Below are positions 12,271 through 32,776 of a DNA stretch of 51,446 nucleotides, piece after piece; the first letter of the stretch is position 1, and the number at the start of each line of letters is the position of its first letter. The translations under genes were made by a program, and so were the position numbers. The notes under the pieces are model-generated. The model was given only the letters and a program-made list of their open reading frames with translations, made no database searches and was not told the DNA's origin. The stretch comes from a bacterium (GTDB taxonomy: Bacteria > Bacillota > Clostridia > Lachnospirales > Lachnospiraceae): contig JAMPCE010000013.1 of the NCBI GenBank assembly GCA_023666335.1, forward strand, positions 10,521 to 61,966, written 5' to 3'.

Positions 12271-12412
12271 GTGCAAATCGTATAATCATAAGCAGACCCT
12301 TGTAAATGTGGTAAATTCCTACGGAATTAACCACTCGAGCACTGCTTCGCAGGCTCGGCGCTACGCTTGGAATGGAGCGCAAGCGCGTCTGCGTTGATTA
12401 TACTATTTGCAC
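12271..12412. repeat. family A palindromic intergenic element, copy 1
   Basis: 142 bp lying between flgG and flgJ. The ends form a long inverted repeat: left GTGCAAATCGTATAATCA, right arm (reverse complement) GTGCAAATAGTATAATCA, then AAGCAGACCC on the left and CGGAATGGAGCG-like sequence before GCGTCTGCGTT on the right. The inner ends are shared with copies at 17243 and 20355; the middle differs. The DNA could fold into one long hairpin on either strand. Confidence 0.8.
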
Positions 12413-12421
12413 ATCATTCAT

Positions 12422-13240
12422 TTATCTCTTTAAATTATTAGCTACCTCAAGCATCGAATCGGAGGTCGTGATGGATTTGGAATTCATCTCGTAAGCGCGC
12501 TGCGCCACGATCAGGTTTACCATCTCGTTTGCCACCTGTACGTTGGAGCCCTCCAGATAGCCCTGGATGATGCGGCTCTTGTCCACGTCGTCGTTCGTGT
12601 CCTCATTGATGGCAGGGCCGCTCGCGTCCGTCACTTCAAAGAGGGTGTCGCCCACTCTCCGCAGACCGCCGGGATTGCTGAACTGGAATGTGCCGATGCC
12701 GACACCGATGGGCTGAGGATTGTTCAACTCGTCAGGATAGCAGATCTGCCCGTCCTCCGTAATGGAAAGGTTGCTCGCTATGTAGGTACGGGGCAGTACG
12801 ATCGCGCGTCCCGTCAGATCCAGCACCGGAAGACCGTCCGAATTGGTCAGCGCCATACCGCCGTTTGCACTGAGCGCCCAGGTAAAGTCACCGTTTCTCG
12901 TATAGTAGATTTGATTGTCATCGCCGCGCAGAGCGAAGAAACCCTCTCCCTCGATCGCGAACGCCGTATCGGAATCCGCATCCAGAAGACTCCCCTGCCG
13001 GAAGATCTGGTTGATGGAAGCGGTGCGCACGCCAAGTCCCACCTGAGAAGTGGTCGGCTTCGGATCGCCGTTTGCCGTGGTCGTCACCGATTGTAAATTC
13101 TGGTACAGAAGCGACTTAAACTGCGCCACCTGCGCCTTATAACCCACGGAATTGACGTTAGCAAGGTTATTTGCTATCGTATCTACATTTGTCTGCTGTG
13201 CATTCATGCCGGTTGCGCCCGACCACAGGCTTCTTACCAT
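12422..13240 (-). CDS. flgG: flagellar distal rod protein FlgG
   Basis: A 272-residue flagellar hook-basal body rod protein. It has the N-terminal motif LWSGATGMNAQQTNVDTIANNLAN (split here: the GMxAQQTxVDTIANNLANVNT type), a central domain with FFALRGDDNQIYYTRNGDF, and the C-terminal coiled segment ANEMVNLIVAQRAYEMNSK with a terminal VANNLKR. FlgG forms the outer, distal part of the rod and is exported by the flagellar type III system. Spacing to flgF is 74 bp. The B. subtilis equivalents FlhO and FlhP also follow the actin homologue mbl, as here. FlgG rather than FlgF is chosen from the GMNAQQT N-terminus. Confidence 0.92.
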   Translation of the reverse strand: MVRSLWSGATGMNAQQTNVDTIANNLANVNSVGYKAQVAQFKSLLYQNLQSVTTTANGDPKPTTSQVGLGVRTASINQIFRQGSLLDADSDTAFAIEGEGFFALRGDDNQIYYTRNGDFTWALSANGGMALTNSDGLPVLDLTGRAIVLPRTYIASNLSITEDGQICYPDELNNPQPIGVGIGTFQFSNPGGLRRVGDTLFEVTDASGPAINEDTNDDVDKSRIIQGYLEGSNVQVANEMVNLIVAQRAYEMNSKSITTSDSMLEVANNLKR

Positions 13241-13314
13241 GATAGTTTCCTCCTGATCTGTTCTCTTGATCCTTATTTATTCTGTCTTAACAGGCTGTTG
13301 TTCCGCCCCGAAAA

Positions 13315-14187
13315 TTAACTCAGTCTACCGTTCTGGCTCACCGCCTGCTCCAGCGTATCGTCGTAGGTGGTGATCACTTTCTGGTTGCTTTCATACTGCC
13401 TTTGCAGGGTGATCATATTGACCATCTCGGTCACTACCGAAATATTTGCCATTTCCAAGTATCCCGCGTGAACCTGCGTATCGGTCTCCATATCATCTTT
13501 CTCGATGCGCTGCGCGCCGTCGATCGTCATGAAATAATTCTCGCCGAAACGCTCGAGATAATTGTAATCTTCAAAGTCCACCACATTGATCGTTGCAACG
13601 ACCGCGCCGTCCTGCACAATGTCTCCGGTACGGTTAATGCTCACGGGAAGCGCGGGATCAAGCTGGATCCTCGCATCGGAATCATCCAGCACATAGTCGC
13701 CGTCCTGCGTTTTCAGAAAGCCCTGGCGATCCATCGTGAAATTACCGTCCCTCGTGTACATGGTGGTTCTCTCACCCAGCTTATTGGTATACTCGATCGC
13801 AAAAAAGCCTCTGTCGGTCAGCGCCAGATCCAGCTCGTTTCCCGTCTCCTTGATGGGACCCTCGGAATAATCCACATAATTCTCTCCGATCTTGACGCCA
13901 AGATTCAAACCCGTCTTACGGACTCTTCTTTCCAGATAATCCTCGTTATACGGATTGTTGACCTCATCCTGATCGATTGCCCGGTTTGTCGCCATCGGCC
14001 GCGGCAGATTGCCCGGCTCCGACAGATCCTTGATCTTGTAGGCAAGCACCGTATCGAACGCCTGACTCGTGGTTCCTTCTTTCTTAAAACCGTTCGTCGT
14101 CGCATTCGCCAGATTGTTCGTCAGAACATCCATCCGATGCTGCTCATTCAACATGCCCGTATACGCGGTGTACAGTCCTTTCAGCAT
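13315..14187 (-). CDS. flgF: flagellar rod protein, FlgF/FlhO type
   Basis: A 290-residue member of the same rod family. The N-terminus LYTAYTGMLNEQHRMDVLTN and NNLANATTNGFKKEG, a central FFAIEYTNKLGERTTMYTRDGNF block, and the C-terminal SVVTEMVNMITLQRQYESNQK are seen. It probably forms the proximal rod. Its ATG at 14187 follows GGGAGGATTAGT, which overlaps the end of the mreB-type gene, with a 1-bp gap, implying co-translation of the actin homologue and rod genes. Assignment as FlgF rather than a second FlgG is by position and divergence; the families blur in Firmicutes. Confidence 0.88.
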   Translation of the reverse strand: MLKGLYTAYTGMLNEQHRMDVLTNNLANATTNGFKKEGTTSQAFDTVLAYKIKDLSEPGNLPRPMATNRAIDQDEVNNPYNEDYLERRVRKTGLNLGVKIGENYVDYSEGPIKETGNELDLALTDRGFFAIEYTNKLGERTTMYTRDGNFTMDRQGFLKTQDGDYVLDDSDARIQLDPALPVSINRTGDIVQDGAVVATINVVDFEDYNYLERFGENYFMTIDGAQRIEKDDMETDTQVHAGYLEMANISVVTEMVNMITLQRQYESNQKVITTYDDTLEQAVSQNGRLS

Positions 14188-14188
14188 A

Positions 14189-15181
14189 CTAATCCTCCCT
14201 ATAGCCCGCTAAAAACTCCACATACTTCCCGGTCCCGATCGCAACCGCAGTCATGGGATCCTCCGCCGTCATGGTGTTGATTCCGGTCTTTGCCGCGATC
14301 AGATCTTCCAGCCCGCGAAGTAAGCTTCCGCCGCCCGTCAGGACGATGCCTCTGTCCGCGATATCCGCCGCAAGCTCGGGCGGAGTCTTTTCCAACACGC
14401 TGTGGATCGTCTCCACGATCTGCACCGTGGTCTCGTGAAGCGCTTCCTCCGTCTCCTCCGAGGAAACTTTCACGGTTCTGGGAAGTCCCGTCACCAGATT
14501 ACGTCCCCTGACGTCCATGTAGTCCACTTCGGCTCTCCTGAAAGCGGAACCGATCTTTATCTTCAAATCCTCTGCCGTCCGTTCACCGATCAGCAGATTA
14601 TGTTTTTTACGCATATAACGCACGATCGCTTCGTCAAAGTCGTCGCCCGCGATCTTGATCGAAGCGCTGACGACCGTGCCGCCTAAAGAAATCACGGCAA
14701 TGTCGGATGTACCGCCGCCGATATCCACGATCATATTGCCGCAGGGCTTCGAGATATCAATGCCCGCACCGATTGCCGCCGCGATAGGCTCCTCGATGAT
14801 GGAGACTTCCCGCGCGCCCGCCTGATACGTCGCGTCCTCAACAGCCTTTTTCTCTACCTCGGTGACGCCGCTCGGTACGCACACCGCAATGCGGGGCTTG
14901 CGGAAACTTTTCTTTCCGAGGGCTTTCTGGATGAAGTATTTCATCATCTTCTCCGTCACCTGATAGTCGGAGATAACGCCCTGACGCAACGGTCTTACCG
15001 CCACGATATTGCCCGGCGTCCTGCCGAGCATGAGGCGCGCGTCCTCACCGATCGCCTTGATCTTATTCGTGTCTCTGTCGAAAGCGACCACGGACGGCTC
15101 CTTGAGTACAACGCCCTTGCCGCGGATATATACCAGAATACTGGCTGTGCCAAGATCTATTCCAATGTCTGTAAACTGCAT
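14189..15181 (-). CDS. mreB: rod-shape-determining actin homologue (MreB/Mbl)
   Basis: A 330-residue bacterial actin. It has DIGIDLGTASILVY (phosphate 1, residues 5-18), the MreB-typical RTPGNIVAVRPLRQGVI, the connect and phosphate 2 region IVDIGGGTSDIAVISLGG, and the adenosine motif GIVLTGGGSLLRGL. MreB filaments steer lateral cell-wall synthesis under the membrane. No mreC, mreD or rodA is adjacent; instead flgF and flgG follow, which is the arrangement of B. subtilis mbl-flhO-flhP, so this may be the Mbl paralogue. A sigma-A promoter lies at 15215-15243. The gene is divergent from the ATPase gene at 15514. Confidence 0.93.
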   Translation of the reverse strand: MQFTDIGIDLGTASILVYIRGKGVVLKEPSVVAFDRDTNKIKAIGEDARLMLGRTPGNIVAVRPLRQGVISDYQVTEKMMKYFIQKALGKKSFRKPRIAVCVPSGVTEVEKKAVEDATYQAGAREVSIIEEPIAAAIGAGIDISKPCGNMIVDIGGGTSDIAVISLGGTVVSASIKIAGDDFDEAIVRYMRKKHNLLIGERTAEDLKIKIGSAFRRAEVDYMDVRGRNLVTGLPRTVKVSSEETEEALHETTVQIVETIHSVLEKTPPELAADIADRGIVLTGGGSLLRGLEDLIAAKTGINTMTAEDPMTAVAIGTGKYVEFLAGYRED

Positions 15182-15214
15182 GACCTTTCCCCTTCCTGAG
15201 AGTATAGCATTATC

Positions 15215-15243
15215 ATTATACCCTTATCCCAGAGGTTTTTCAA
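15215..15243 (-). promoter_or_regulatory. sigma-A promoter for mreB-flgF-flgG
   Basis: Minus strand: -35 TTGAAA, 17-bp spacer, -10 TATAAT, 33 bp before the ATG at 15181. The rest of the 332-bp gap to 15514 is AT-rich and shows no gene; a weak GC-rich palindrome around 15300-15330 is the only other structure noticed. Confidence 0.75.
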
Positions 15244-15513
15244 AGGTTTTTGTGATTTTTTTCAATTTTTTTGTTCTACAACTAAAAAACGCCAAAAACA
15301 GAACGGTTCCTTCCGTCCGGTTTTCGGCTTCCATGCCTTATCTGATATAGTTATCGGAGAGAGCTTGAAAAATCTTAACAGGGCAGACAAATTTCATCAA
15401 AATTATTCTTGCAGGGATGATATCGTGCGAATATACTATATTTATCATTTGTCGCCAGAGTCTTGGGCGCAATATAACAACATTATGAAAAGTTGCAGAA
15501 AGGATGACAGATC

Positions 15514-17175
15514 ATGAAAACACAGGCAGAACTGCAAAGACTCCTCCGCGATATCGACCACAAGGGCTACAAGGCGTACAAGGTGCTGGAGGGCGAATAC
15601 GATTTCGGCGCATACCGCCTCTGCATCGACCATGTGCAGGGGGATCCGTTCGCCACGCCCTCGCGGGTGCGGATCGTCTATCGAAATCAGGGCAACATTC
15701 CCGCCGCTTACTTCGAAAACAGGCATCGGCGGATCGCCGTAGAGGATCATCTTTTGCGCAGCCTGCACCGAAATCTGCGCGCAGGGGACGGCAGGGCAGC
15801 CAAAGGCTCCGGCAAGAGCGGTCTGGTGACAGCCTGCCGGACCAGTCAGGAAATTCTGGAGACAACCGCCATGCACCTTACGAAGGACGCGGTCACAGCC
15901 CGCATCGAAGTGGGCTTTCCCGCTTTCGGCAGAACGATCGCAGCGGGCGAACTTTCGCAGATCCTTTTTAAAGTTTTGCCCGAACTTTGCGAAAAGTCCT
16001 TTCACATGAATCCTTCCATGAAACAATCATTAGATAAAGTCGTGTCCCTTGCGGACGACCAGCAGTTTATCCGCGAAAGCCTTGCAGAGCAGGGGCTTGT
16101 CGCCTTCGTGGCGGACGGCTCGATCCTGCCCCGGGAGAGCGGCGTCTCCCAGCGCCCCCTAAAAGACGCTGTGGTGTTCAAAAGCCCGGACTCCCTCGCT
16201 GTCACCCTGACGCTGCCCCACCGCGGCAAAGTGCGCGGCATGGGGATCAGGCGCGGCATCACGATCATCGCAGGGGGCGGTTTCCACGGAAAGTCTACGC
16301 TCTTAAAAGCGCTGGAACGCGGCGTCTACAACCACATCGCGGGAGATGGCAGGGAACTCGTCATCACCGACGAGACCGCTTTCAAGCTGCGGGCGGAAGA
16401 GCACCGCTGCATCCACGAGACGGATATTTCCCTCTTTATCAACAATCTTCCCATGAAGTCCGACACCACGCGTTTCCAGACGGAAAACGCCAGCGGCAGC
16501 ACCTCACAGGCCGCCAATACCGTGGAAGCGCTTGCGATCGGCAGCACGACTCTCCTGATCGACGAGGACACTTCCGCCACGAATTTCATGGTGCGCGACG
16601 GACGGATGGCGCAGCTCGTCTCCGATGAAAAGGAGCCGATCACCCCCTTTATCCGCAAGATCAGAAGCCTCTATCAGGATCTGGGCGTTTCTACGATATT
16701 GGTAGCGGGAAGTTCCGGCGATTACCTGTCCGTGGCGGACACGGTCTTGCAGATGGACTGCTATGAGGCGAAAGATGTGACCGCACGGGCAAAAGAGCTC
16801 GCCGCACCCCTCACGGAAGAAACGGTGAAAGAGACCGCGTGGCTGAAAAAGAAAGTCCGCTCTCAAAGAATCGAGAAAACGCGGGTGCACGGCTGGGATA
16901 CGATCAGCCTGGACAAGAACGAGATCGACCTGCGCTATCTGGAACAGATCGTCGGCGAGAGCCAGACTGCCGCCCTCGCATACGTTTCGCAGTATATTTT
17001 AGAACGGTTAGCCGATGCCAAAAAGACCCTGCCCGAACTCGCCCGGGAAGCCTCCGAAAAAATAGAGCGGGACGGCATCCTCTCCCTTACCCCCAAGAAC
17101 TACGGCGCCGGACCTGCGGCTTATGTGCGCAGGCAGGAGATTCTGTCCTGTCTCGCAAGATATCGGATGCTATAA
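15514..17175 (+). CDS. predicted ABC-class ATPase (COG3044 / PF09818 type)
   Basis: A 553-residue soluble protein. The central part has an unusual P-loop IIAGGGFHGKSTLLKAL (near residue 250), and later TLLIDEDTSATNFMVRD, the Walker B with adjacent acidic residues, plus an ABC-like region around NASGSTSQAANTVEAL. The N-terminal 200 residues are alpha/beta and end in RRGI. This matches the widespread but uncharacterised ABC_ATPase family, which lacks transporter membrane domains. The start ATG follows AGAAAGGATGACAGATC. It is transcribed alone, divergent from mreB and convergent with uvrA. Substrate and partners are unknown; RNA or nucleotide handling is speculative. Confidence 0.88.
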   Translation: MKTQAELQRLLRDIDHKGYKAYKVLEGEYDFGAYRLCIDHVQGDPFATPSRVRIVYRNQGNIPAAYFENRHRRIAVEDHLLRSLHRNLRAGDGRAAKGSGKSGLVTACRTSQEILETTAMHLTKDAVTARIEVGFPAFGRTIAAGELSQILFKVLPELCEKSFHMNPSMKQSLDKVVSLADDQQFIRESLAEQGLVAFVADGSILPRESGVSQRPLKDAVVFKSPDSLAVTLTLPHRGKVRGMGIRRGITIIAGGGFHGKSTLLKALERGVYNHIAGDGRELVITDETAFKLRAEEHRCIHETDISLFINNLPMKSDTTRFQTENASGSTSQAANTVEALAIGSTTLLIDEDTSATNFMVRDGRMAQLVSDEKEPITPFIRKIRSLYQDLGVSTILVAGSSGDYLSVADTVLQMDCYEAKDVTARAKELAAPLTEETVKETAWLKKKVRSQRIEKTRVHGWDTISLDKNEIDLRYLEQIVGESQTAALAYVSQYILERLADAKKTLPELAREASEKIERDGILSLTPKNYGAGPAAYVRRQEILSCLARYRML

Positions 17176-17242
17176 TCAATGAGCAGATTTCCGGTCGATA
17201 CAAATTCATGGTATCTACCTTACAATTTTCTATACCGTAAAC

Positions 17243-17411
17243 GATGACACGACTGACATAATCATAAGCAGACCCTCGTAGGGCATCGGTACTTGGCGAG
17301 GTACGGAGTTGCTGTGCAACCAAAGTTGCACGGCAGCTTCCCGAGCCTAGTACCGCTATGCCCGGAATGGAGCGCAAGCGCGTCTGCGTTGATTATGTCA
17401 GTCGCGTCATC
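17243..17411. repeat. family A palindromic intergenic element, copy 2
   Basis: 169 bp between the convergent ATPase and uvrA genes. Left arm GATGACACGACTGACATAAT continues into CATAAGCAGACCC; the right arm reads, as reverse complement, GATGACGCGACTGACATAAT then CAACGCAGACG. Inner ends match copy 1 (AAGCAGACCCT.., CGGAATGGAGCGCAAGCG) but the outer arms differ from copy 1 while pairing with each other. An internal hairpin GGTTGCACAG-type core (GTTGC-tgt-GCAAC at about 17309-17321) is also present. Confidence 0.8.
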
Positions 17412-17431
17412 TCACGACATAGAAACTCTCA

Positions 17432-20287
17432 TCATCTCTCTAACATTTTCTTCACATAAACTCCCGTATACGACTTCTTATTCCGTGCGATCTGCTCCGG
17501 CGTCCCCTCGGCAATCACAGTCCCGCCGCCGTCGCCGCCCTCGGGTCCCATGTCAATGATATAATCGGCGGTCTTGATTACATCGAGGTTGTGTTCGATG
17601 ACGATCACCGTATTGCCGCCCTCTGCCAGTTTATGCAGAATGTCCACCAGCTTGTGCACATCTGCAAAATGCAGACCCGTGGTCGGCTCGTCCAGAATGT
17701 AGATGGTCTTTCCGGTACTGCGCCGGGAAAGCTCCGTCGCCAGTTTGATGCGCTGCGCCTCGCCGCCCGAAAGCGTAGTGGAGGGCTGTCCCAGTTTTAC
17801 ATAGGAAAGTCCCACATCATTCAAGGTCTCGATCTTTCTGCGGATGGACGGCAGATTCTCAAAGAAAGGCACCGCCTCCTCCACCGTCATATCGAGCACG
17901 TCAAAGATATTCTTTCCTTTATATTTTACTTCCAATGTCTCCCGGTTATAACGCTTGCCGCCGCAGACTTCGCAGGGGACATAGACGTCCGGCAGAAAGT
18001 GCATTTCTATTTTCAAAATGCCGTCGCCGCAGCAGGCTTCGCAGCGGCCGCCCTTCACGTTAAAGCTGAACCGTCCTTTTTTATAGCCTCTGGCTTTCGC
18101 GTCCTGTGTGGAGGCAAACAGATCGCGGATCTGATCAAAAACACCCGTATAGGTGGCGGGATTCGAGCGCGGCGTCCTGCCGATGGGGGACTGGTCGATA
18201 TTGATGACTTTGTCAAGCTGCTTGATGCCCTCGATCCCCTTATGCCTGCCGGGAATGGTACGCGCACGGTTCAAGTCCCTTGCCAGATGCTTATACAGGA
18301 TCTCATTTACCAGAGAACTCTTGCCCGATCCGGAAACGCCCGTCACACAGGTAAATACGCCTGTCGGGAACTTTACGTCGATCTTTTTCAGGTTATTTTC
18401 TTCCGCGCCTTTTACGGTAAGCCACCCGGTCGGCTTTCTGCGCGTCTTCGGCACGGGAATCTTTAACTTGCCCGAAAGATACTGCCCCGTCACGGATTCC
18501 GGGACCTGCATGATCTCCTCCGCCGTGCCCTGCGCCACCACTTCGCCGCCGTTTGCGCCGGCGCCCGGGCCGATATCCACGATATGATCCGCCGCCAGCA
18601 TGGTATCTTCGTCGTGCTCCACCACGATCAGCGTATTGCCCATATCTTTTAAACTTTTCAGCGCGGCGATCAGCTTATCGTTATCCCGCTGATGCAAGCC
18701 GATGCTCGGTTCGTCCAAAATATAGCAGACCCCGACAAGCCCCGATCCGATCTGGGTCGCCAGACGGATACGCTGCGCCTCGCCGCCCGAGAGCGAACCC
18801 GTTGCACGCGAAAGAGAGAGGTATTCCAGCCCCACTTCCATCAAAAAGCCGACCCGCGCCCGAATCTCCTTTAAGACGCGCTTTCCGATCAATTCCTGCT
18901 GGGGCGTAAGTTTCATATCCCCGATAAACTCATGTAATTTCGCGATAGAAAAAGACGTGATTTCATATATATTTTTATCGCACACCGTCACCGCAAGGGA
19001 CTCCTTTTTCAGGCGCATTCCCTTACATTCCTTGCAGGGCGTGATGCGCATAAACGTCTCGTACTCCTGCTTGCTCCAATCGGAATTGGTCTCCCGATAA
19101 CGCCGCTCCACATTTTTGATCAACCCCTCAAAGGTGATCGGATAAACGCCCTTTCCGCGCTGCCCCTCATAATAGACGTCCACTTTTTTGTCTGTGCCGT
19201 TGATGATAATGTCCTGCACCTCTTCCGGCAGTTCCCCGAAAGGCGTCTTCAAACTGAACCGAAATTCCTTAGCAAGAGCCTGCAGGACCGCGTTGGTAAA
19301 ACTGCCTTTGTCCCCGCTGGACTGCCAGCCCAGAACCGTGATCGCGCCGTCCTCCAAACTGACACACCTGTCAGGTATCATCAGATCAACGTCGAACTCC
19401 ATCTTGTAGCCGAGACCGAAACAGATCGGACATGCGCCGAACGGGTTGTTAAAGGAAAAACTTCTCGGCTCGATCTCGCTGATGCTGATCCCACAGTCAG
19501 GGCAGGCAAAACTCTGGGAAAACTGTATCGGCTCGCCGCCGATGATATCCAGAATCATCAGCCCCTCGGACAGTGCAAACACATTCTCCACGGAATCCGC
19601 AAGCCGCCGCTCGATCCCTCCTTTTACCACAAGGCGGTCTACCACGATCTCGATATTATGCTTGATATTTTTCTCAAGCTTAAAATCCTCAGCCTCCTCC
19701 GTCAGATCGTAGAGATTGCCGTCCACCCGCACACGCACATAGCCGCTGCGGCGCGCCCGCTCAAAGATTTTTGCATGTTCGCCCTTTCTGCCCCGCACCA
19801 CCGGCGCGAGCAGCTGGAGCTTCGTGCCCTCCGGCAGCGCCATCACCTGATCCACGATCTCATCCACTGTCTGCCGCCGGATCTCCCTGCCGCAATTCGG
19901 ACAATGGGGAATACCGATACGCGCATAGAGCAGGCGGAAATAATCGTAGATCTCCGTCACCGTCCCCACCGTGGAACGCGGGTTTCTGTTCGTCGATTTC
20001 TGATCAATGGATATCGCCGGAGAAAGCCCCTCGATCCGCTCCACATCCGGCTTCTCCATCTGCCCTAAAAACATTCTGGCATAGGAAGAGAGCGATTCCA
20101 TATAGCGCCGCTGCCCCTCCGCGTAGATCGTGTCGAAAGCCAGCGAAGACTTTCCCGAACCCGAAAGCCCCGTAAGCACCACAAACTCATTCCGCGGAAT
20201 GTCAACGTCGATCCCTTTCAAATTATGTTCTTTCGCGCCGCGGATCTTAATATATTCTTTCGGGCGTATCTTTATCGTGTCTGACAT
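17432..20287 (-). CDS. uvrA: excinuclease ABC subunit A
   Basis: Damage-recognition ATPase of nucleotide excision repair, acting with UvrB and UvrC. The 951 residues hold two ABC modules: Walker [15 protein letters not shown] near residue 38 and [14 protein letters not shown] near 645, signature motifs LSGGEAQRI in both halves, and zinc-binding pairs CPDCG...CPIC (about 265-290) and CEACCGDG...CEVCGG (about 745-770). The start [18 protein letters not shown] follows AAGGAGTAGATATGTT. uvrB lies upstream on the same strand but is separated by 372 bp of palindromic elements, so the pair may be transcribed apart. A LexA box was not evident. Confidence 0.98.
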
Positions 20288-20320
20288 AACATATCTACTC
20301 CTTCTCTTGTATAGATGTAT

Positions 20321-20540
20321 ATAGGCGATTGCGAAACGCTTTCATCATTATTGAAATTGTACAAATAGCATAACCAACGCAGACTCGCTTTCGCTCCATT
20401 CCGAGCGTAACAGACGCTAAACTCGGGAGTTACTATGTAACTCCATACCTCGTTAAGCGCTGACGCTCTGCAAGGGTCTGCTTATGGTTATCCTATTTGC
20501 ACAATTATTACAGTATTTTCTGGCATTTCGCAAACGCCTA
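20321..20540. repeat. long nested palindrome between uvrA and uvrB (outer arms)
   Basis: Left arm TAGGCGATTGCGAAACGC (from 20322) and right arm, read as reverse complement, TAGGCGTTTGCGAAATGC (ending 20540) enclose the whole family A copy 3. The entire stretch could fold as one hairpin about 220 nt long. Both sides also carry ATAGATGTATA as a direct repeat (20311 and 20541), which could be target-site duplication-like or coincidental. Confidence 0.6.
20355..20506. repeat. family A palindromic intergenic element, copy 3 (inverted)
   Basis: 152 bp in the uvrA-uvrB gap, in opposite orientation to copies 1 and 2. Left arm AATTGTACAAATAGCATAAC then CAACGCAGAC; right arm (reverse complement) AATTGTGCAAATAGGATAAC then CATAAGCAGACCC. 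The conserved inner ends CGGAATGGAGCG and GTCTGCGTT are present. Arms pair with each other but only partly match copy 1 and not copy 2. Confidence 0.8.
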
Positions 20541-20555
20541 ATAGATGTATAGATA

Positions 20556-20658
20556 GGACAGATGATGTAAGTGCATCTGCTGATCCCTGAGCAACTGTCT
20601 GAGGGCAGGAACTGCCCGAGTTTTGCGAAGGGTCACAGATCACTTACATTATCTGTCC
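20556..20658. repeat. family B palindromic intergenic element, copy 2
   Basis: 103 bp ending 2 bp from the uvrB stop codon. The ends pair: GGACAGATGATGTAAGTG against (reverse complement of the right end) GGACAGATAATGTAAGTG. The inner block GGCAGGAACTGCC-CGAGTTTTGCGAA resembles copies 1 and 4. It could act as the uvrB 3' structure, but has no T tract. Confidence 0.7.
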
Positions 20659-31702: not shown

Positions 31703-32776
31703 TCACCTCCCGGATGGCATCAGGTAGAGCGTGTTTGCATTTTGATCATAACGATAGGAGAGCGTGCTCTGAGACATTTCATCCATTTTTTCTTCCATCT
31801 GCCGCATTCCCTCTTTTATGCTCTGATCCATCTGCTGTAAGCCCTCCTTCATGTTTTGATCCGCCTGCTGCAAGCCTGCCTTCATGTTTTGATCCGCCTG
31901 CTGCAAGCCTGCCTTCATGTTTTGATCCGCCTGCTGCAAACCCTCTTTCATATCCTGATCTACCTGTTTGATGCCGGCTTTGGCTTTATCCAGTTCTTCT
32001 TCGATATTCTGTATGTTTTTTGCCGTCTTTTCCAGTTGCCCGTCGATCTCTTTCAGGTTTTTATCGATCGCCTTATCCAGATTTCTTTCCACCGCCGCCA
32101 ATTCTTTCCAGAGTTTTTCATCCTCCTGCTGCAATGATGAAACCGATTCCCGAATGCCCGAGACCTCCGTATGGTTCCGCTCGATCTCGGTGCGGACATC
32201 CTTGATCTGCGCCTGGATCGCCGGAAGTTTCTCAAGATTTACCACCTGCATCATATCGCTCAGATCCGCCAGTTTGCTTTCTGTCTGCCTGATATTTTCC
32301 GTCGCTTTTCTGATGGAACTTTCCAGTGTACTTAAGGTCTCCTTTTGTGAGACGTCGCTCTCGCTGCGCTCGACGATCACTTTCGTCACTTCCTTTTCTA
32401 CCGTTTCCATCGTACTCTGCAGCTCGCGCACTTTTTCCGCAAGCGCATTTGTGTCGCTTAAGAATTCCTGCCGCAGTTCCTCCCCGTTATTCTGCGACAG
32501 ATATTCTTTCATTTTCTCCTCATAAGTAGCCATCGCAAGCTCCTGTGATTCCTCCTGCATACTGACAAGTTCCGCGCTCTCCTGCAACGCTTTCGCTTTG
32601 TTTGCAGCCTCCTTTTTTTCGTGAGCGGCATATCCCCACCAAAAGAGCAGGAGCAGGACAACGACGACAATCACCACGGCAGCGATCACCGCAGCTGAAA
32701 GCCTGTCCTCCTTTCGCTCCGGATCCTCCCTTCTCTCACTGAAATAATCTGACACTCTTGTCATAAATTCTCGCAT
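31703..32776 (-). CDS. membrane-anchored coiled-coil protein with 11-residue tandem repeats
   Basis: A 357-residue protein. A short cytosolic part (1-26) precedes one transmembrane helix (about 28-46, AAVIAAVVIVVVVLLLLFW), then an almost continuous coiled coil of about 270 residues without proline breaks. Near the end come about five 11-residue units of the form ADQNMKAGLQQ. The last 20 residues (TLSYRYDQNANTLYLMPSGR) look globular. The ATG at 32776 follows AAAAAAGGAGGTTATT exactly; the frame is open ten codons further but without a ribosome site. It leads a three-gene run with two other envelope proteins. Such architecture suggests a rod-like spacer or scaffold; I recognise no family. Confidence 0.72.
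   Translation of the reverse strand: MREFMTRVSDYFSERREDPERKEDRLSAAVIAAVVIVVVVLLLLFWWGYAAHEKKEAANKAKALQESAELVSMQEESQELAMATYEEKMKEYLSQNNGEELRQEFLSDTNALAEKVRELQSTMETVEKEVTKVIVERSESDVSQKETLSTLESSIRKATENIRQTESKLADLSDMMQVVNLEKLPAIQAQIKDVRTEIERNHTEVSGIRESVSSLQQEDEKLWKELAAVERNLDKAIDKNLKEIDGQLEKTAKNIQNIEEELDKAKAGIKQVDQDMKEGLQQADQNMKAGLQQADQNMKAGLQQADQNMKEGLQQMDQSIKEGMRQMEEKMDEMSQSTLSYRYDQNANTLYLMPSGR
31817..31981 (-). repeat. 33-bp tandem repeats coding 11-residue units
   Basis: Five 33-bp units within the coiled-coil gene. The three at 31850, 31883 and 31916 are nearly identical (CATGTTTTGATCCGCCTGCT... each); the flanking two have diverged. The unit is in frame, so copy number could vary without breaking the protein. 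It is not a CRISPR: there are no spacers. Confidence 0.85.

Follow-up and report, generated by a model that had tools for sequence, protein, structure and literature searches.

A hairpin element family of Lachnospiraceae with a covarying core and self-matching arms

Three copies in the window and their family

The window, a stretch of 51,446 nucleotides (nt) from a Lachnospiraceae genome (assembly GCA_023666335.1, contig JAMPCE010000013.1, positions 10,521 to 61,966), contains three copies of a palindromic hairpin element in which an inverted repeat of 20-45 base pairs (bp), longer by up to ~120 bp in one other genus, surrounds a core of 92-130 nt. They belong to an apparently undescribed family found in many members of this bacterial family. 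Copy 1 (12271..12412, + strand, core ~12288-12395) is flanked by a flagellar hook-basal body gene, which scores over the cut-off of TIGR03506 and under those of FlgG models, and by an open reading frame (ORF) that matches FlgJ weakly. Copy 2 (17243..17411, + strand, core ~17264-17390) lies between two convergent ORFs, uvrA and one without an NCBIfam match, and copy 3 (20355..20506, - strand, core ~20376-20485) sits in the uvrA-uvrB gap. All three palindromes, the last inverted, had been listed in an earlier note on this DNA, and the outer arms of each are complementary to their own partners, as that note proposed. A covariance model built from 46 diverse cores (R1) matches copy 1 at 12273-12411 (70.5 bits), copy 2 at 17249-17406 (123.1 bits) and copy 3 at 20360-20500 (123.3 bits). 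Fold energy z scores against dinucleotide shuffles are -9.3, -11.7 and -9.5, respectively, and for each copy none of 200 shuffles folds as well as the real sequence.

The further claim that the outermost arms differ among the three copies stands for copy 2, whose site-specific arm, GATGACACGACTGAC, is wholly different, and needs correction for copies 1 and 3, which are not unrelated: they carry variants of a shared-lineage arm, TTGTGCAAAT.G.ATAA.CAT on the core strand, common to many copies in the genome. Copy 1 (inner variant A) also differs in its inner part, where a TGTGGTAAATTCC hairpin replaces most of the second stem of the core. Copy 3 is embedded in a complete unit with terminal inverted repeats (20322..20540, - strand; TAGGCG.TTGCGAAA.) that resembles a miniature inverted-repeat transposable element (MITE). 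This unit is bounded by a left and a right target-site duplication, ATAGATGTATA, at 20311..20321 and 20541..20551, which match at 11/11 bases. Beside it, at 20556-20658, the window holds a second, unrelated hairpin (GGACAGATGATGTAAGTG...CACTTACATTATCTGTCC) with an orthologous copy in a relative (G002), the outer stem of which is changed yet still matching.

The element family suspected in the earlier note extends well past these three copies, as R1 finds 86 in the genome of the window at E <= 0.01. BLAST with copy 1 gives 67 matches there, grouped into ~41 places; 44 sequences were extracted, and the 41 with a whole core divide into 10 of inner type A and 31 of type B. R1 matches at E <= 1e-4 in 86 of 200 sampled Lachnospiraceae genomes (85 of 199 genera), where scoring of 17 candidates per genome makes copy numbers lower bounds. 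In a sample of 291 genomes of the class, seven match at 1e-6 and all seven are Lachnospiraceae: among the 27 rows listed, 7/10 family members and 0/17 others match, and the remaining 264 genomes have no match. A 25-letter core pattern occurs in 62 stretches of named records, 56 of them titled Lachnospiraceae and the other six titled Butyrivibrio, Clostridiales bacterium (twice), uncultured bacterium and two isolates. Two metagenome-assembled genomes named Lapin (L083, L103) carry the core in tandem arrays, in which some units have no 5' arm.

Rfam 15 has no match within the window at gathering score, and at 12 loci of diverse members its sole match is a T-box elsewhere in L255; around copy 3, at E up to 10, three sub-cut-off snoRNA matches all fall outside the copy. 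Plasmid and phage collections queried with one 125-base copy gave no match. No title among the matches listed from open-licence literature on repeats and structured RNAs describes a hairpin family of this kind.

The structured core

The core folds as an RNA-like three-way junction, in which a closing stem (GCAGAC/GTCTGC here) is joined to a long second stem and to a short hairpin with a GNRA loop. A module of the second stem, CTT-NNN-GAGG / CGA-NNN-TAG, is almost invariant, with the CTT, GAGGT and CGA/TAG columns invariant or nearly so in a 46-row alignment. Covariation was scored for a structure of 42 pairs, using 46 diverse cores that MAFFT had aligned without any fitting to that structure. 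In this alignment 95.4% of cells are paired, and both sides have changed at 31 of the 42 pairs, in 283 cells, compared with a mean of 77 after shuffling and at most 63 when partners are slid. The 86 distinct copies of the window's genome, aligned by fitting to the model and hence leaning toward the structure, show 96.8% of cells paired and 667 changed on both sides versus 163 in shuffles. The loop of the small hairpin is GNRA in 85 of these 86 copies (GCAA 45, GAAA 30, GAGA 6, GGAA 2, GGGA 2, other 1). The core thus displays covarying helices and conserved loop motifs, as structured RNAs do, which supports an RNA-like structure, one of the earlier note's suggestions. These signs on the core strand are RNA-like and suggest that the functional molecule is RNA, although a single-stranded DNA structure may be formed instead.

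Changes in the second stem are almost exclusively of the transition type (148 versus 7 transversion-type), whereas those in the arms are evenly divided (57 versus 58). The second stem looks like the product of selection on the fold, because it has undergone almost only transition-type swaps and has kept its conserved mismatches. One explanation relies on selection throughout: pairing would be required of a stem in a functional RNA or single-stranded DNA, the stem sequence would otherwise be free, point mutations would be compensated singly and the variety of arms would reflect old divergence of many source copies. The strong covariation of the second stem, alongside mismatches and loops that copying would erase, agrees with this account, as does the excess of transition-type changes, which is expected if compensation passes through G-U intermediates. 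Selection alone is nevertheless an unlikely explanation for the whole element, given the behavior of the arms described below.

The type A inner module (GTGGTAAATTCC..GGAATTAACCAC CGAGC..GCTCGG) is an independent hairpin family that is also present inside the core of copy 1. It stands alone at L031, L032, L035, L042 and L043 (in G002, G022, G003 and G018), with a start codon within ~50 nt downstream in all five; L032 and L042 apparently represent one orthologous site. In other species (L080, L090, L094, L100, L124), the second stem is interrupted at the same point by a different extra hairpin, GTTTAAATCC TTC GGATTAAAAC.

Arms, orthologous sites and movement

A common arm is carried by 44 of the 86 copies in the window's genome and is absent from 42, a division that rests on a similarity threshold set by the authors; the same arm is seen in other Lachnospiraceae genomes. 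Across the 86 copies, arm identity averages 0.813 within a copy, 0.532 when a 5' arm is compared with the 3' arm of a different copy, and 0.350 after shuffling. Outer-arm pairing therefore exceeds chance, the comparison that the earlier note had set as a test of its proposal. For the 42 copies without the common arm, the corresponding values are 0.817 within and 0.422 between copies. Two copies with cores starting AAGGAGCCCC (C23:27048 and C23:14598) are 0.99 identical in the core and 0.19 identical in the outer arm (16 positions), and each arm is self-complementary. A third copy, C62:83288, has a core 0.97 identical to both and a third arm. Since near-identical cores carry unrelated, self-complementary arms, cores and arms have separate histories. 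So little core divergence would leave little time for selection alone to compensate arm mutations one by one, unless cores are homogenised separately.

A genome of a second genus (G171, genus g112) shows the same behavior. There are 37 hits there; of the 36 extracted, 23 have both anchors, 20 share a common outer frame and 18 are usable. In 18/18 the best match comes from the copy's own 3' arm, with identities of 0.917 within and 0.729 between copies. Further out, the 19 copies read carry another repeat that is peculiar to each copy, 61-124 nt long and 0.85-1.00 identical, which seems long for selection acting base by base. One locus, L407 (G171:C3:39857), keeps the usual outer frame of this genome around an entirely unlike core, which has long matching arms of its own, giving nested hairpins.

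Orthologous sites allow arm changes to be followed between species. At sites alpha and beta in 20 congeners, R1 matches at both in G055 and at beta in G003, which has a decayed copy at alpha; the 18 others have no match, and G050 and G002 hold what look like remnants at alpha. Of 30 loci at site gamma, five match (G012, G010, G005, G016 and the window's genome), and G003 is decayed. The remaining loci are empty or hold other hairpins, with one flank lacking in G002 and G042. By eye, the gamma gap in G050, G075, G068, G043, G001 and G018 seems to hold other hairpin elements, making this spot a possible hot spot for them. In five species pairs at three sites (inner 18-20 bp, ungapped, beta in G003 left out), 15 of 22 differing arm positions carry the same change in both arms, 9 of the transition and 6 of the transversion type. 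For example, the arms of G010 and G005 pair at 22/22 positions and differ by one coupled change. Furthermore, G010 has its core inverted relative to G012 and G005, with the same genes on either side, which speaks against selection alone.

Element-free sites in relatives, which the earlier note had suggested seeking at orthologous loci, are found: relatives with both flanks and no R1 match number 12 at site 1, 11 at site 2 (including two gaps of 1.5 and 9 kb) and 16 at site 3. In the reverse case, G002 has a copy (L161:11681-11808) within the same syntenic stretch at a point where the window's genome has none. Both terminal inverted repeats are recognised in 24 of the 86 copies (at most 4 mismatches at each end) and not in 62. 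Among those 24, the 11-bp target duplication is perfect in 3, including copy 3, and at least 9/11 in 5, compared with 1/552 at 9 or more of 11 for crossed flanks. The duplication is clear for only a few copies. For the lineage of copy 3, element-free sites in relatives and target duplications support the MITE-like mobility raised in the earlier note.

Common cores with site-specific arms could also arise if the core inserts into the center of existing palindromes, which then provide the arms. The supply of such palindromes makes this highly improbable. In 440,581 bp of this genome (the window and 20 regions selected because copies lie in them), near-perfect inverted repeats with arms of at least 16 number 3 with loops of up to 20 nt and 4 with loops of 21-59 nt; block shuffling, done twice, produced 9 raw hits across spacers of every size. 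The short-loop repeats exceed shuffles but are far too few to supply the arms. Another 30 inverted repeats have spacers of 60-260, and at least 18 of these are this hairpin family. In addition, 12 of 18 element-free gaps at site beta are shorter than 40 bp, although deletion could explain some of them.

The placement of copies relative to genes raises a different explanation, a cis-acting transcript element (a bidirectional terminator or an mRNA stabiliser) that has spread as a MITE. With five copies at contig edges left out and genes called as simple ORFs, 81 copies of the window's genome have ORFs on both sides: 52 tandem, 20 convergent and 9 divergent. Among the tandem cases, 42 have the core strand antisense to the neighboring ORFs and 10 have it sense. 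In a sample of 44 copies (20 regions of up to 20 kb plus the window, picked to contain all 10 sense exceptions), 30 oppose the majority coding strand and 14 run along it, and GC skew gives the same split, which favors neither replication nor transcription direction as the cause. The convergent and antisense placements would suit a transcript element, as would near-identical terminator-like hairpins on both sides of several convergent-ORF copies of g112 (L378, L383, L385 and L390, by a loose fold rule). Tandem-ORF copies of that genome vary: such a hairpin stands on one side in L387, L389 and L399 and on neither in L371, and something stands on both sides in L380, L395, L396, L400 and L402, alike only in L400. 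Because no U-tract is seen after the core, copies occupy tandem, convergent and divergent settings alike, and most relatives lack the element at the sites examined, this role is improbable.

Apart from these hairpins, the window holds five direct repeats of 33 bp at 31794-31958, spanned by a 284-codon open frame on the - strand that perhaps encodes an 11-residue protein repeat.

Proposed template switching and selection, and comparison with known systems

On balance, the most likely account is that a structured core moves, that copying from one arm to the other by template switching keeps the arms matched, and that selection acts on the core fold. Both processes are proposed because the second stem looks selected and the arms look copied. 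Template switching is suggested for the arms because its reported products resemble what is seen here, namely a conserved core within arms that are private and match each other, transversion-type changes coupled between the arms, and a core that has been inverted. It homogenises inverted-repeat arms and inverts spacers, according to one report (PMC8604942), and creates and maintains RNA stems, according to another (PMC8794818). The conserved, spreading unit would be the 92-130-nt core, and the surrounding arm sequence would belong to the site or lineage. Template switching during replication, or recombination, between the arms would repeatedly rewrite one from the other and would be the main reason why they stay matched, and the same switching would now and then invert the core, while selection would maintain the core fold. 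One lineage in the window's genome and its relatives, with a fixed arm and terminal inverted repeats, would have spread in the manner of a MITE, with target duplications of 11 bp. The earlier note's ideas of a copying mechanism tied to the hairpin or of extension into flanking DNA fit the site-specific arms best, although the copying step and any transfer of a core to a new site without its arms are inferred.

It is also conceivable, if rather doubtful, that the arms are generated by the element itself. Once a core had landed at a new site, template switching would copy one flank in inverted form to the other side, and a private palindrome would grow outward, sometimes taking in the terminators of neighboring genes; the arms would then be continually re-matched and the core would flip. 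Orthologous intergenic sequence is too diverged to trace arms to one flank.

Several observations weigh against a mobile core with arms re-matched by copying. A simple reading of arm self-matching already meets a limit, in that no more than 51/86 copies, namely 16 of the 44 with the common arm and 35 of the 42 others, have their own 3' arm as the best or joint best match. This low figure arises because 44 copies share one arm and are indistinguishable. Of the 22 orthologous arm differences, 2 changed differently in the two arms and 5 are one-sided, as is also expected from slow compensatory selection, and the arms of beta in G003 pair at only 15/22 positions. The five species pairs overlap in the species and sites that they draw on, so they do not count as independent. 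Only one inverted core is seen, and it comes from draft genomes, in which inverted repeats may be misassembled. Gene conversion that homogenises cores could also yield shared cores with different arms. The mixed spectrum of changes in the arms is expected under any model, since the aligned arms come from unrelated sites. The antisense bias suggests selection or replication direction, and mutation alone leaves it without explanation. Finally, these searches revealed no autonomous partner or transposase: of 111 places in the window's genome that fit the pattern of the ends (80 in the reversed control), 8 were read closely and none is a transposon, and no autonomous element was found among the 4 of 32 pattern places read in G171, one of which is L407.

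The elements form a large, apparently undescribed family in a major family of gut bacteria, and some genomes offer natural replicates by the dozen. Shared cores with private arms allow selection on a fold to be told apart from the re-matching of stems by mutation; this question, which PMC8794818 raises for RNA stems, is hard to test with single-copy genes. They also urge caution, as compensatory stem changes alone are no proof of a functional RNA.

The earlier note had also proposed a repetitive extragenic palindromic (REP) element, and REP/REPIN sequences with their RAYT transposases are likewise palindromic, intergenic and of high copy number. This identity is not supported, since no Y1/RAYT transposase was found in the window's genome and the element is much longer. 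Y1_Tnp (PF01797) has 0 matches in the window's genome, whereas the same search is positive in 5 of 14 control genomes; copies span ~140-170 bp (219 bp for copy 3 with its terminal repeats), so that the element is a unit of ~140-220 bp with a structured core and not a 20-40-bp hairpin. MITEs resemble the subset with terminal inverted repeats, 11-bp target duplications and element-free sites in relatives. On the other hand, many copies here have no such terminal repeats and carry private arms, and a parent transposon was not found.

Hairpin evolution by template switching (PMC8794818, PMC8604942) likewise involves coupled arm changes and spacer inversion; as far as their accessible text goes, those papers concern RNA genes and short inverted repeats in yeast coding genes rather than a dispersed family with a conserved spacer of 92-130 nt. 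Palindromic candidate structured RNAs from human microbiomes (PMC8040213) similarly have structures on both strands of a single region. The main text of that study gives four palindromic examples, mostly or entirely from Bacteroidetes, and contains no Lachnospir- words; at that level of comparison, the family may overlap with one of its 3161 candidates.

BOX and RUP of Streptococcus pneumoniae (PMC3049150), as described in the accessible text, are likewise small, interspersed, multi-copy and tightly folded hairpins with paired termini, and BOX is modular. The main text of that paper does not use the word 'compensatory'. BOX and RUP belong to another host group, whereas the present family combines a GNRA loop and three-way-junction core conserved over many genera with many site-specific arms. 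One lineage works like a MITE, although some MITE features are recognised in only part of the copies; the tested features of REP elements are absent, and the family resembles BOX-type repeats.

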